NCBI GenBank assembly: GCA_003054655.1
Contig: QAYZ01000016.1
Location: forward strand, 930,001-994,000
Direction of reading: 5' to 3'
DNA length: 64,000 nt
Origin: Spartobacteria bacterium LR76
GTDB lineage: Bacteria; Verrucomicrobiota; Verrucomicrobiia; Chthoniobacterales; Terrimicrobiaceae
Below, one piece after another: positions 34,391 through 38,593 of this stretch; position 1 is the first letter of the stretch; every line of letters starts with the position of its first letter. A program made the translations under genes and the position numbers. The notes under the pieces are model-generated. The model was not told the origin of the DNA and ran no database searches. It saw only the letters and a program-made list of their open reading frames with translations.

Positions 34391-35401
34391 TCACTGCTCG
34401 TTGGTCTCTCGTCTACGTGGCATCACGTCTGGATACGGCCCGAGGAAACGCTCTCCGTTGAAGTGAATCATGTGGTCGGGATCTTCGGCGATCCAGACTT
34501 CGGATTCCCACGCAATCTGCGAGACGAAGGCCTGCATAGCCCGGCGGTTCTCGAAGGCGGTGACGAACACGAGGCCCGCGTTGCAGTTGGCGAAGAGGTC
34601 TTTGAGTTCCTTGCGGCGCTTGCCGTCCACCGGGCCGGCGCTAGTGACTGCTTCGATGAGCAGAAGCCAGTTTCGCTTGGTATCGTGAACGATGACATCG
34701 GGAATCTTGGCGGCGGAATCCAAAGTAACGCCGAGCGCGGCCAGTCCCGCGGTTTCCAAATGGACGAATTTGTTTTCGGTGTCGCCGATGTAGAGGACCA
34801 CGCCTCCGGGAGCAAAGGCTGGGCAGAACTGCTCGATAATGGCTTTAATAAGCGGATTCTGACCACCGGGCGACAGCGCGACCTGAGAGCCATCGGGCAA
34901 GGTGACGGGTACACGGGCGAGGTCGCGCTTGCGGGCGATCTCGTATTTGAGCGTTTCGCGACTGGCCAGGTAATGCGCCAAAGCCGGAGTCCAATCGTGG
35001 GTGCCGAATGTGCGCAAGAGAGCGAGCGCAGTGGGCTCGATTTGATAGACGGTCTTGCCGCTGTTGGTCGGACGGTTGGGGTCGTCAGGATTGCGTAGCA
35101 GCAGGCCTTCCTCCACGAAGAATTTCACTGCATCATCGCGGATGGTTTCTCGTGTGTTGGGAGCGTAGTGGTTGCCGTAGGCGGCGGCGATGAAGTCGAT
35201 GATCGGAGTGATACCGCGCAAAGGAGCCTGGGCGTCGGACCATGAGGCATCCGGCTGAAGGTCAAGCAGGGCAAGCAACGTGTAGGCAGCGATTTCATTC
35301 CGCTGCTTCGGGCCAAACTGCAGCGCCGTCAGGGCTTCGATGGTCTCGGAGCGCCGCTTTTTCCGGGCGGCGGCTTTGCGTTTGGAGCTATCAGCGGGCA
35401 T
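34391..35401 (-). CDS. BsuBI/PstI-type restriction endonuclease
   Basis: This 336-residue protein matches the PstI/BsuBI family, type II enzymes recognising CTGCAG. The N-terminal 30-135 region looks like a winged-helix recognition part. The C-terminal nuclease block contains 'LSPGGQNPLIKAIIEQFCPAF', 'GGVVLYIGDTENK', 'KIPDVIVHDTKRNWLLLIEAVTSAGP' (PD at 234-235, Glu250) and 'KRRKELKDLF', giving PD-(D/E)xK-like residues. The specificity is inferred from the family alone. The start overlaps the methyltransferase stop by 11 nt. Confidence 0.9.
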   Translation of the reverse strand: MPADSSKRKAAARKKRRSETIEALTALQFGPKQRNEIAAYTLLALLDLQPDASWSDAQAPLRGITPIIDFIAAAYGNHYAPNTRETIRDDAVKFFVEEGLLLRNPDDPNRPTNSGKTVYQIEPTALALLRTFGTHDWTPALAHYLASRETLKYEIARKRDLARVPVTLPDGSQVALSPGGQNPLIKAIIEQFCPAFAPGGVVLYIGDTENKFVHLETAGLAALGVTLDSAAKIPDVIVHDTKRNWLLLIEAVTSAGPVDGKRRKELKDLFANCNAGLVFVTAFENRRAMQAFVSQIAWESEVWIAEDPDHMIHFNGERFLGPYPDVMPRRRETNEQ

Positions 35402-36872
35402 GAAGGTATTTGGTGACGAGTCGGTCGATTTCGTCCTGCGAGTGGTCGAGGGTTTTCATTTCGCGGCCCATTGCTTCGAGAGTGTCGCGGTCGGGATAGG
35501 CGAGCGTGCGGAGGTCGGTGGCGTTCACTTGCGTGTGGCCGCTGAAGCGGCGGAAATACTGATCAACGACTGTGGAGTTCAGAAAGGCATAAAGGCCAAC
35601 GGCAAGCGTGCGCTCCAAGCCATGTCCGTTGGCGTGGAAGTAATTCAGATGATTTTCGAAGCCAACCCACTCGGTTTTCACTTCGTCCGGGTCGAACAGG
35701 CAGGCGACGAGGCGGCGACGCTCTTCTTTCGAAGTGAAGCGTTTCGTGAGCAGATAGACGCCAGAGGGCACGAGCCATTGGCGCGTCTCGTCGTTGTCGA
35801 GAATGGCGTTGGGCTTGCGGGCTTCCAGCTTGGGCCAGTGAACTGTGCCTCCGTTGAAGTGGCAGGGATAGAGCAGCGGCACGGTGCCGCGTTCGGGTTC
35901 TTTGCGGAGTGAGTCCTTGAGCCGGAAGTCCACGACTCGTCCGGTGGAGACCGTGACACCCAGCGAGGCGAGGCTGGAGCGAAGGCTGGCCATGGTTTCC
36001 TTGGCCGTGGCGTGGCTGGCTGCGACGGGGATGTGGATAAACTTCTCCGGGTCGCGCGGGTGGACAATTTCCGCGAAGGGAAACAAGGCTTCGCTGATGT
36101 CGCCGCCACGCTCTCCGCTACTGCTGGATACGAGGATTTCGTCGGGCTGATTCCGGCCCTTCACCGCGTGGAAGATGATATTCTCCTGCAGCACGTTGTC
36201 ATCGCGGAAGGCGGCTTGCCGGGATTCGAAGACATGAAGGCGACGCAGTGCCATCTGGCTGAGGAAGTCTTCACGGAACGGGCGGAAGTAAGGGCCATTG
36301 CAGAAGCTGCGCGGAGTGATGCCGACGAGCTGCCCCCCTGGAACGAGCAACCGCTGAATGAGGGCGATGAAGCCAGTGTAGAGGTTGCTAGTCTCGATAC
36401 CGACAGAACGCAGGGCGCGGCGCTCAACGGAGTCCGTTCCGATTTTGCGATACGGTGGATTCGCAATGGAGACATCGAACACCGGCGGATGCGTGCGGAA
36501 CAAATCTCCCGAGACACGTGCCGACATTTCCTGGATGAAGTCGGCGGAATGAATGGTAAATGTGAAGCTGATGCCTGCCTCGGCGCAGCGATGCTCGCAA
36601 TCACGCATCGTCTCGGCCAGCGCGTCGAGGATTTCCCTGTCGAGTTCAAATAGTGTGGCCTCTATGGCACGAATACCGTCGCGCTTTTCACAACAGCGAG
36701 AGACGAAAGCCGCTGTGAGGGAGCCAGCCCCGGCACCAGCGTCAAGCAGGCGCACCGTTCGCGGGAGTGGCCCGAACATTGAAGCCATGAAGTCAGCCAC
36801 CGACGTCGCAGTGAGGAACTGCCCGAGTTCCTCCTGGCGACTTCTGGGGTTTTCGATGGCCGCAATTTTCAT
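35391..36872 (-). CDS. BsuBI/PstI-type adenine-N6 DNA methyltransferase
   Basis: This 493-residue methyltransferase has the SAM motif 'RLLDAGAGAGSL' (41-52) and the catalytic 'SIANPPYRKIGT' with NPPY at 138-141, typical of N6-adenine enzymes of the Eco57I/PstI group. The N-terminal 'RQEELGQFLTATSVADFM' is a family signature, and the C-terminal half carries the recognition part. It is the modification partner of the overlapping endonuclease gene and would methylate the A of CTGCAG if the family rule holds. CTGCAG occurs inside both R and M genes (near 35315 and 36185), so the host would need protection. Confidence 0.92.
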   Translation of the reverse strand: MKIAAIENPRSRQEELGQFLTATSVADFMASMFGPLPRTVRLLDAGAGAGSLTAAFVSRCCEKRDGIRAIEATLFELDREILDALAETMRDCEHRCAEAGISFTFTIHSADFIQEMSARVSGDLFRTHPPVFDVSIANPPYRKIGTDSVERRALRSVGIETSNLYTGFIALIQRLLVPGGQLVGITPRSFCNGPYFRPFREDFLSQMALRRLHVFESRQAAFRDDNVLQENIIFHAVKGRNQPDEILVSSSSGERGGDISEALFPFAEIVHPRDPEKFIHIPVAASHATAKETMASLRSSLASLGVTVSTGRVVDFRLKDSLRKEPERGTVPLLYPCHFNGGTVHWPKLEARKPNAILDNDETRQWLVPSGVYLLTKRFTSKEERRRLVACLFDPDEVKTEWVGFENHLNYFHANGHGLERTLAVGLYAFLNSTVVDQYFRRFSGHTQVNATDLRTLAYPDRDTLEAMGREMKTLDHSQDEIDRLVTKYLHAR

Positions 36873-37223: not shown

Positions 37224-38552
37224 CTACCTGCCCTTTGCGGCGTCGTAGGCTGCCAGCACCTGGCGGAAGACGGGGCTGAAGTCCTGCGGGGTCCGGGCCA
37301 GCCACTCGCGCACTTGCGGCATCGCGAAAAATGCGCCGGTTTCCAGTTCCATCCGGGGGAGGACAAACGGGCCGTCGTGGGTGCCGGAGTACAGCTCGAT
37401 GAATTCAAAGCCGGTCTCCGCCGAGCACCCTAGGCGGCCGAATTTCTCCAGCGGGCAGCGAATTCCCAATTCCTCGAGAATCTCGCGCTCCGCCGCTCCG
37501 TCGTAGGTTTCCCCGGCATCGACATGTCCCGCCGCGCTGGAGTCCCAGACGCCCGGGTTCTTGTCCTTCCAGATCGAGCGCTTTTGCAGGAAGAGCTCCC
37601 CGGCCTGGTTGAAAATCAGCATGTGAACCGCCCGATGGCGGAAGTTATTCACATGGACAGCATTCCGCGGCTCCGAGCCGATGACGCGATCAGATTCGTC
37701 CACGATGTCAAACATTTCGTCACCGCTTTGCGCCCTCGCCGGAGCGACCATCTGCGTGAGCTTTTCCCACTGTTGTAATGACAATTCCTCCGCCCGTACG
37801 GTCTCCGGGAGACCCAGCGCAGCGCAGGCGTCGGGCCACAATTCCCGGTACTCCGGCAGGAGCTTGCGCAGTTGTTTCCGGCGTTCGGAAAATCCCTTGC
37901 GCACGAGGTACTCAAAGAGCGCCTCGTCGCACGCGGGCACCTCGTCGGCGCTCTTCTTTTCGAGGATGACGACAGCCGACGCGACCTTGGGCTGCGGGAA
38001 GAAAACGGTGTGCGGAATTTTCTTCGCGTAGCTCACCTTCCACCGCCTCGCGGTGCACACGCTCATCGCGCCAAAATCCTTCGTGCCCGGAGTCGCCGCG
38101 AGCCTCGCCGCCACCTCGTGCTGGAGCATCAGAACAAGTATTGATGCGGGTGAGAGGGCGGATGCGTATTTCGCGATGAGTGGGGTTGACACGTAATACG
38201 GCAGGTTTCCGACGATCTTCACCGGCCCCTTTCCGTAGAGCTGGCGCAGGTCAAAATCCAGCGCGTCCATGTGGAACAGTTCTACACCCTGACCCGCGAA
38301 TTTTTTGGTCAGCCACTCCACCATCAGACCATCCTTCTCGATGAGCGTGACTGTCACCCCCGGCTGCACCAGACACTCGCTGAGCGACCCGAGACCCGGG
38401 CCGACTTCCACCACGTGCTCACCCTCACGCAACGAGAGTTGCGCGGCGATCCAGCGGGCGATGTTTTGATCGTGTAAAAAGTTCTGCCCCAGGCTCTGGC
38501 GAGGCCGTGTCTCCAACTCGGCCAGGGCATGCTGGATTTCCGTGAGCGTCAT
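37224..38552 (-). CDS. rsmA: 16S rRNA dimethyladenosine transferase (KsgA/RsmA) fused to a NUDIX hydrolase
   Basis: This 442-residue protein is a clear two-domain fusion. Residues about 3-265 are KsgA/RsmA, which dimethylates two adjacent adenines near the 3' end of 16S rRNA: 'RQSLGQNFLHD', SAM loop 'EVGPGLGSL', catalytic 'GNLPYYVSTPL' and C-terminal 'KGFSERRKQLRKLLP'. Residues about 277-442 are a NUDIX hydrolase of the Idi/YfcD-like type ('FDIVDESDRVIG', 'FRHRAVHMLIF'), with a complete NUDIX box at 342-364 ('GHVDAGETYDGAAE' then 'REILEELGI'). Both active sites look intact and the frame is unbroken. The ATG at 38552 is the family start; an upstream in-frame start at 38591 exists. Confidence 0.93.
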   Translation of the reverse strand: MTLTEIQHALAELETRPRQSLGQNFLHDQNIARWIAAQLSLREGEHVVEVGPGLGSLSECLVQPGVTVTLIEKDGLMVEWLTKKFAGQGVELFHMDALDFDLRQLYGKGPVKIVGNLPYYVSTPLIAKYASALSPASILVLMLQHEVAARLAATPGTKDFGAMSVCTARRWKVSYAKKIPHTVFFPQPKVASAVVILEKKSADEVPACDEALFEYLVRKGFSERRKQLRKLLPEYRELWPDACAALGLPETVRAEELSLQQWEKLTQMVAPARAQSGDEMFDIVDESDRVIGSEPRNAVHVNNFRHRAVHMLIFNQAGELFLQKRSIWKDKNPGVWDSSAAGHVDAGETYDGAAEREILEELGIRCPLEKFGRLGCSAETGFEFIELYSGTHDGPFVLPRMELETGAFFAMPQVREWLARTPQDFSPVFRQVLAAYDAAKGR

Positions 38553-38570: not shown

Positions 38571-38593
38571 AGCCCTCTGTTTCACAAACACAG
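38571..38593. repeat. inverted repeat upstream of the ksgA fusion
   Basis: CCCTCTGTTT and AAACACAGGG form a 10-bp stem with one mismatch over a 3-nt loop, 18 bp before the start of the KsgA-NUDIX gene and in the divergent space to sppA. It could be an operator or an mRNA leader hairpin. Only the fold is seen directly. Confidence 0.35.

Follow-up and report, generated by a model that had tools for sequence, protein, structure and literature searches.

A conserved fusion of a KsgA/RsmA rRNA methyltransferase with a NUDIX domain in a group of Verrucomicrobia

Nearly all organisms have KsgA, an enzyme that serves as a late checkpoint when the small ribosomal subunit is assembled. The window analyzed here, a stretch of 64,000 nucleotides, contains a gene in which KsgA appears to continue into a NUDIX hydrolase, and the question is whether the two are truly one protein and, if so, what the second domain would do beside the first. 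A KsgA joined to a nucleotide or diphosphate hydrolase, with the two genes paired in relatives, is a pointer to a link between ribosome assembly and metabolism. The fusion is, besides, a way into the YfcD-like branch of NUDIX enzymes, for which we found no assigned substrate; PMC5158307, which deals with eight NUDIX substrates, does not mention YfcD.

The fused gene and its KsgA half

The gene and its parts were placed on the window as follows.

37224..38552, minus strand: gene of the KsgA-NUDIX fusion (442 aa), beginning with ATG at 38552
37752..38552, minus strand: KsgA/RsmA half, residues 1-267 (Pfam, TIGR00755, fold match)
37716..37751, minus strand: linker, residues 268-279
37227..37715, minus strand: NUDIX half, residues 280-442 (Pfam and fold match to YfcD 2fkb)
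38196..38207, minus strand: NLPY motif, residues 116-119
37461..37529, minus strand: NUDIX box GX5EX7REUXEEXGU, residues 342-364

Translation of the minus strand runs from the ATG to the stop codon at 37226..37224 with zero internal stops, and an in-frame GTG at 38591 offers an alternative start. The in-frame fusion announced by a sequence-only reading of this DNA is thus one uninterrupted frame of 442 residues, and the motifs which that reading named are where they should be: GNLPYY at residues 115-120, the SAM loop in the methyltransferase and a canonical NUDIX box at 342-364. Pfam finds RrnaAD and NUDIX in the protein and no third domain at E 0.001.

The KsgA half is complete. RrnaAD covers residues 18-263 (E 1.3e-48, 165.8 bits vs a Pfam cut-off of 24), and the score against the NCBIfam KsgA/RsmA model TIGR00755 is above the cut-off (226.8 bits vs 171). 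The C-terminal KsgA subdomain is included, with Pfam positions 5-255 of 263 covered and a fold match extending over residues 1-273. In an alignment of 55 rows (the window and 54 of the 80 kept loci presented below), N116-Y119 and the E49, G51, G53 and G55 of the E-x-G-x-G-x-G SAM loop are invariant (55/55); NLPY is kept in 79 of the 80 loci, L077 having NIPY, and in 97 of 99 genomes. The full-length model (pLDDT 93.7, pTM 0.90) has 6ift, the KsgA of Bacillus subtilis, as a fold match for its residues 1-273 (Z 31.5 and rmsd 2.5, with 273 positions compared). Its ten-residue block of lowest confidence is residues 271-280, at the linker (pLDDT 71), and the linker stretch is 2-19 residues long across 47 fused genomes; the high pTM of the model suggests that the two domains may have a preferred mutual arrangement. 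By family and fold, the N-terminal half is an ordinary KsgA, predicted to dimethylate the neighbouring adenines A1518 and A1519 close to the 3' end of 16S rRNA.

A scan of our genome collection returned 261 relatives, and the 80 best among them were kept. One ORF is matched by both halves in all 80 kept loci; in one of them (L024) the ORF is only 368 aa long and its tail is out of frame. Because a separate assembly, 97% identical (L009), and 79 further loci also carry both halves in one ORF, an assembly error or a chance ORF is ruled out, and with it the frameshift between the halves that had been named as fatal to the gene. The 80 loci all belong to Verrucomicrobiota (Chthoniobacterales, Spartobacteria, Terrimicrobiaceae and similar) and come mostly from metagenome assemblies, with Chthoniobacter flavus Ellin428 (L052) as an isolate. 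Two longer frames, L177 (874 aa) and L188 (1124 aa), were considered as three-domain fusions and rejected, the surplus looking by eye like shadow frames of upstream DNA. Elsewhere in the window, near the fusion, a BsuBI/PstI-type restriction endonuclease adjoins an Eco57I-type methylase (34391-36872, minus strand), likely a type II restriction-modification pair.

Distribution and history of the fusion

Each half was searched for on its own in one set of 132 genomes of the class, presence being called at E 1e-10. They are fused in 45 genomes from 12 family groups (38 verified as a single ORF in the DNA, 7 called from frame lengths and spanning matches). A fusion limited to one MAG is therefore ruled out, and so is absence from all relatives, the other finding that the sequence-only reading had named as refuting: the fusion is genuine and is shared, as a conserved feature, by a group of Verrucomicrobia. 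In twenty genomes from 15 family groups a NUDIX gene with a frame of its own comes after ksgA on one strand, the aligned NUDIX start lying at most 45 bp from the ksgA stop in 11 of them and at most 80 bp in 15. None of the 132 has the two genes reversed, or on opposite strands, at a distance of 2 kb or less. The genes are unlinked in 61 genomes: on different contigs in 41, a placement that can hide linkage in draft genomes, and on one contig in 20, at 2.3 and 2.5 kb in G102 and G406 and more than 35 kb apart in the other 18. One or both genes are missing in the last 6. A NUDIX ortholog is present in 127 of the 132 genomes, in single copy save for one weak second match. Twenty adjacent cases among the 81 unfused two-gene genomes would be far in excess of chance in genomes of megabase size. 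A separate observation comes from L168 (genome G431), closely related to a fused genome: there the ksgA stop overlaps a possible NUDIX start, which suggests coupled translation.

In a draw of 387 genomes from the phylum, at least 55 (counted by eye) have a single match spanning both halves. The spanning matches listed fall in the order of the window (11, window included) and in family groups f8 (38) and f11 (6), all of the same class; none lies beyond the class among the matches listed. NUDIX relatives are weaker there, and in 22 of the 22 genomes beyond the class that could be placed among the matches listed, ksgA and NUDIX are on different contigs.

Trees of each half were built from 99 genomes: 47 fused (38 of the 45, plus 9 more from the phylum draw), 20 adjacent, 2 near, and 30 of the other 59 unlinked, taken at most two per family group. 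In the best quick trees the 47 fused genomes stand in three places, so that three changes are needed: one for a clade of 41 genomes (the order of the window with f8 and f11), a second for five genomes of f83, and a third for a single f98 genome (G446), whose sister is another f98 genome in the adjacent state. The fusion of this single genome could be a sequencing slip. AU tests on KsgA reject a single clade of all 47 (p 0.0016) and do not reject the grouping of the 41-genome clade with f83 (p 0.315). For NUDIX, whose alignment is short, the free quick search missed better trees: keeping all 47 together gains 4.6 log units over the free tree (p 0.571), and grouping the 41 with f83 gains 26.1 (p 0.792). 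Since the constrained NUDIX trees beat the free one, the three NUDIX places are not trustworthy and are no proof of separate origins. We conclude that the fusion arose one to three times, not more; fission in place of fusion may be what the trees record, since their root is not known.

Twenty of the 132 genomes have ksgA and then NUDIX, and none has them reversed nearby. From this distribution and from the trees, the fusion most likely has its origin in an ancestral pairing of the two genes in the class. The simplest account is that an old gene pair turned into a single protein in which both predicted enzymes are active. Our preferred explanation as a whole, which we hold to be probable by a modest measure, is a bifunctional protein made of a dimethylase and a NUDIX hydrolase of small diphosphates, joined from that pair. 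What would have preserved the fusion is a need for both activities to be expressed in constant proportion and at one site, probably the 30S subunit under assembly.

Of the alternatives, the strongest is that the merger was neutral: co-transcribed neighbours were joined by loss of a stop codon, both still working with no biochemical tie between them. We give it a minority chance, though one of real weight. The short spacing fits it well, as a NUDIX start at most 45 bp from the ksgA stop in 11 of the 20 adjacent genomes means that fusion needs only a small change, and the 61 genomes that keep the genes apart tell that the physical link is not required. Against a neutral merger, adjacency recurs in 15 family groups and the fused state is unbroken in the 41-genome clade, two genomes of 0.9 Mb included. 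Two single-contig genomes of this size from the order of the window, G036 and G057, keep no more than two NUDIX domains apiece at E 0.001 (locus recorded with them: L259:1489-1944), one of which is the KsgA-fused domain with its box intact. In G036 the second is RppH-like, its best model being NF001937 (89.1 bits, under the cut-off of 139). That genomes of this size retain the fused NUDIX suggests that it is of importance, and also that RppH-like work is done by another protein.

The NUDIX half and its candidate substrates

The NUDIX domain is found at residues 305-386 (Pfam E 2.7e-16, 60.2 bits vs a cut-off of 21.1). None of the specific NCBIfam models is reached: not the nearest, the YfcD equivalog NF011922 (80.5 bits vs 152), nor the IPP isomerase models TIGR02150 (51.9 vs 105.8) and NF002995 (65.1 vs 127), nor NF001938 (28.2 vs 116), the sole RppH model among the best 25 rows. 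A model of the isolated domain (pLDDT 93.1, from a 17-row alignment) is closest in fold to YfcD 2fkb (Z 24.1; rmsd 1.6, 160 residues aligned), followed by DR0079 2o5f (Z 22.5, rmsd 2.0 over 156), and it also matches the IPP isomerase IDI 1nfs (Z 21.0, rmsd 2.2 over 164). The first match beyond the YfcD, DR0079 and IDI families comes at rank 14 (3dup, Z 17.2).

The metal-binding residues of a NUDIX hydrolase are kept. The strict NUDIX box is present in the window, in 96 of 99 class genomes and in 61 of the 80 loci. Within it G342, H343, G347, R356, E357, E360, E361 and G363 are invariant in all 99 sampled class genomes, and the same holds around it for H300, H306, R307, H310, Q323, R325, K329, E383 and E402; this invariance is alike in the fused, adjacent and unlinked forms of the 99 genomes. 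From these conserved metal-binding residues, the C-terminal half is predicted to be a metal-dependent NUDIX pyrophosphohydrolase, most likely cleaving a small nucleoside or prenyl diphosphate. E348, kept in 96 of the 99 genomes, is replaced in 17 of the 80 fused proteins (D in 11, C in 2, Q in 2, H in 1 and R in 1) and the last glycine of the box in 2 of the 80, so that full hydrolase activity is not certain everywhere. These replacements of E348 also fit a NUDIX half that has become a non-catalytic binding module, sensing a nucleotide or contacting the 30S subunit. We think this improbable, as the RE-x-x-EE residues are kept in 80 of 80 fused proteins and the conserved residues in 99 of 99 genomes, fused and unlinked alike.

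The resemblance to type 1 IPP isomerase was examined residue by residue. H300, H306, H343, R325 and K329 align with identical residues of IDI, which serve there as ligands of the metal and of the diphosphate. Ala341 falls in the column of the cysteine of SxCGH, the catalytic cysteine of the isomerase, and this column holds A in 49, S in 48 and C in 2 of the 99 genomes. With the catalytic cysteine missing and both IDI cut-offs unreached, IPP isomerase was rejected; the NUDIX half looks like a hydrolase of the YfcD/DR0079/IDI branch and like no isomerase of known type. Hydrolysis of IPP, DMAPP or another prenyl diphosphate, which would tie ribosome maturation to isoprenoid supply, is a distinct proposal that we regard as unlikely but worth keeping in view. 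It draws on the rank of 1nfs among the nearest folds and on the five residues common with IDI, invariant in 99 of 99 genomes. The plant enzymes AtNudx1 and AtNudx3 are moreover reported to remove phosphate from IPP and DMAPP (PMC6779861), and on that account prenyl diphosphates are a reasonable candidate alongside nucleotides. It is weakened by YfcD and DR0079 being nearer than IDI and by the gene context, since an isoprenoid gene was found in none of the 20 scanned neighbours of unlinked NUDIX genes (5 of them without a family).

These 20 proteins show a mixed context, and no common pathway was found among them: folE2 twice (G001, G131), alginate export twice, five with no family, and the remainder of one kind each, among them NAD(P)HX repair, ArgJ, formyltransferase, LptF/G and a ComB-like phosphatase. 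In the two genomes with folE2 among these neighbours (L192, L218) it lies just upstream of the unlinked NUDIX ortholog. A dihydroneopterin triphosphate pyrophosphatase (FolQ-like) was considered and set aside: folE2 is present in 109 genomes and was seen near an unlinked NUDIX in three, G001, G131 and G128 (at 3.6 kb in the last), and NUDIX is also kept in genomes with no folE2 match, e.g. in f84 and f2. The neighbours of fused and adjacent genes were examined at 123 loci. In 10 genomes of the adjacent state (L162, L164, L166, L167, L170, L172-L176) ksgA is preceded by a class-III aminotransferase that looks BioA-like and, further upstream, by a radical-SAM protein that looks QueE-like, one member of which was scanned; both labels were given by eye. 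The aminotransferase occurs once downstream of a fused gene (L036, the member that was scanned). The BioA-like, QueE-like and KsgA enzyme types all use SAM. A weakly DUF697-like protein was also seen upstream of ksgA on the same strand at 42 of the 123 loci (e.g. L030:2729-3973), the two members scanned both being under the cut-off. None of this, whether around fused, adjacent or unlinked genes, fixes the substrate.

In E. coli, ksgA neighbours apaGH, and the sequence-only reading had suggested that the fusion could be a covalent version of this partnership, acting on Ap4A. A NUDIX half hydrolyzing Ap4A (ApnA) in place of ApaH draws on this neighbourhood and on the absence of ApaH over its family cut-off (TIGR00668) from all 132 class genomes, which makes a replacement possible; the control itself had ApaH over the cut-off in 1 of 14 genomes. 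Weaker matches occur in 36 of the class genomes, as would be expected of other phosphoesterases; the window's own genome (G000) has no TIGR00668 match, and Pfam, giving RrnaAD and NUDIX only, finds no ApaH-type domain in the fusion protein. ApaH is equally missing where ksgA and NUDIX are unlinked, the fused domain belongs to a different subfamily, nearest to YfcD, DR0079 and IPP isomerase, and one of the 0.9-Mb genomes of the order has retained an RppH-like NUDIX as well, in a separate protein. RppH-type enzymes act on ApnA and on RNA ends. We find Ap4A a doubtful substrate, a little more so than prenyl diphosphates. What stands of the earlier proposal is the tie itself: a physical link conserved in 45 fused and 20 adjacent genomes of 132 makes some functional connection likely, and it is the version built on ksgA-apaG-apaH and Ap4A that is not supported.

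NUDIX enzymes can act on RNA ends, and KsgA is an rRNA-binding assembly factor; both facts would suit a NUDIX half that removes 5' pyrophosphate from pre-rRNA or another RNA at the 30S subunit. This is the least probable of the activities considered here, the best RppH model among the rows listed being far below its cut-off (28.2 vs 116) and an RppH-like paralogue being present in G036. A more speculative idea, to which we attach a slim chance, is that NUDIX acts on a compound tied to the chemistry or the site of KsgA, e.g. N6-(di)methylated adenine nucleotides from the breakdown of marked rRNA, or is a diphosphate sensor gating the last 30S step. If true, the writer of an RNA mark would be fused to an enzyme that clears or reads the matching metabolite.

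Comparison with known systems

AtNUDX3 of Arabidopsis presumably has a likeness of motif. There a NUDIX hydrolase is joined to another enzyme, dipeptidyl peptidase III, according to a reference title in PMC5389931; both the partner enzyme and the kingdom differ from the present case. The main text of the same review on Nudix enzymes contains neither 'methyltransferase' nor 'Verrucomicrob', and that of a paper on the essential genes of Verrucomicrobium spinosum (PMC12283558) has no ksgA, rsmA or Nudix. In our searches of the open-licence literature the fusion appears only as one row of a gene table, with no title or abstract on it among the papers listed: Table 1 of PMC3861447 lists, on an Akkermansia-like gut fosmid, protein 34, of 450 aa, with ksgA and NUDIX domains and a best match in Akkermansia sp. 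CAG:344. The two domains, in a single protein, are the same as ours, and the table row comes without an analysis of the fusion. By this row Akkermansia, a common genus of the human gut, appears to carry the fusion.

The N-terminal half agrees with KsgA/RsmA (TIGR00755; 6ift, 3fuu, 1qyr) in its whole domain, its NLPY, its score over the cut-off and its fold. It differs by what follows: among the bacterial KsgA chains listed none exceeds 292 residues, whereas here a second enzyme domain of 163 residues is appended. YfcD of E. coli (2fkb) is nearest to the NUDIX half, being the best fold match, at 29% identity, and the best PDB profile match; however it stands alone, lacks the histidines at the H300 and H343 positions, and its equivalog cut-off is not attained by the fusion. 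DR0079 of Deinococcus radiodurans (2o5f, 1q27), the second fold match, has 24% identity, no His at the H300, H306 and H343 positions and is also a stand-alone protein; a reference title in PMC5389931 gives it a preference for cytosine nucleotides. Type 1 IDI (1nfs) has in common with the fusion its fold and the His, Arg and Lys positions. It differs in its catalytic cysteine, which is Ala or Ser in the NUDIX half and its orthologs (C in 2 of 99), and in its family models, the cut-offs of both being above the score of the fused domain; and E. coli IDI is without the full REUxEE box that the NUDIX half of the fusion carries.
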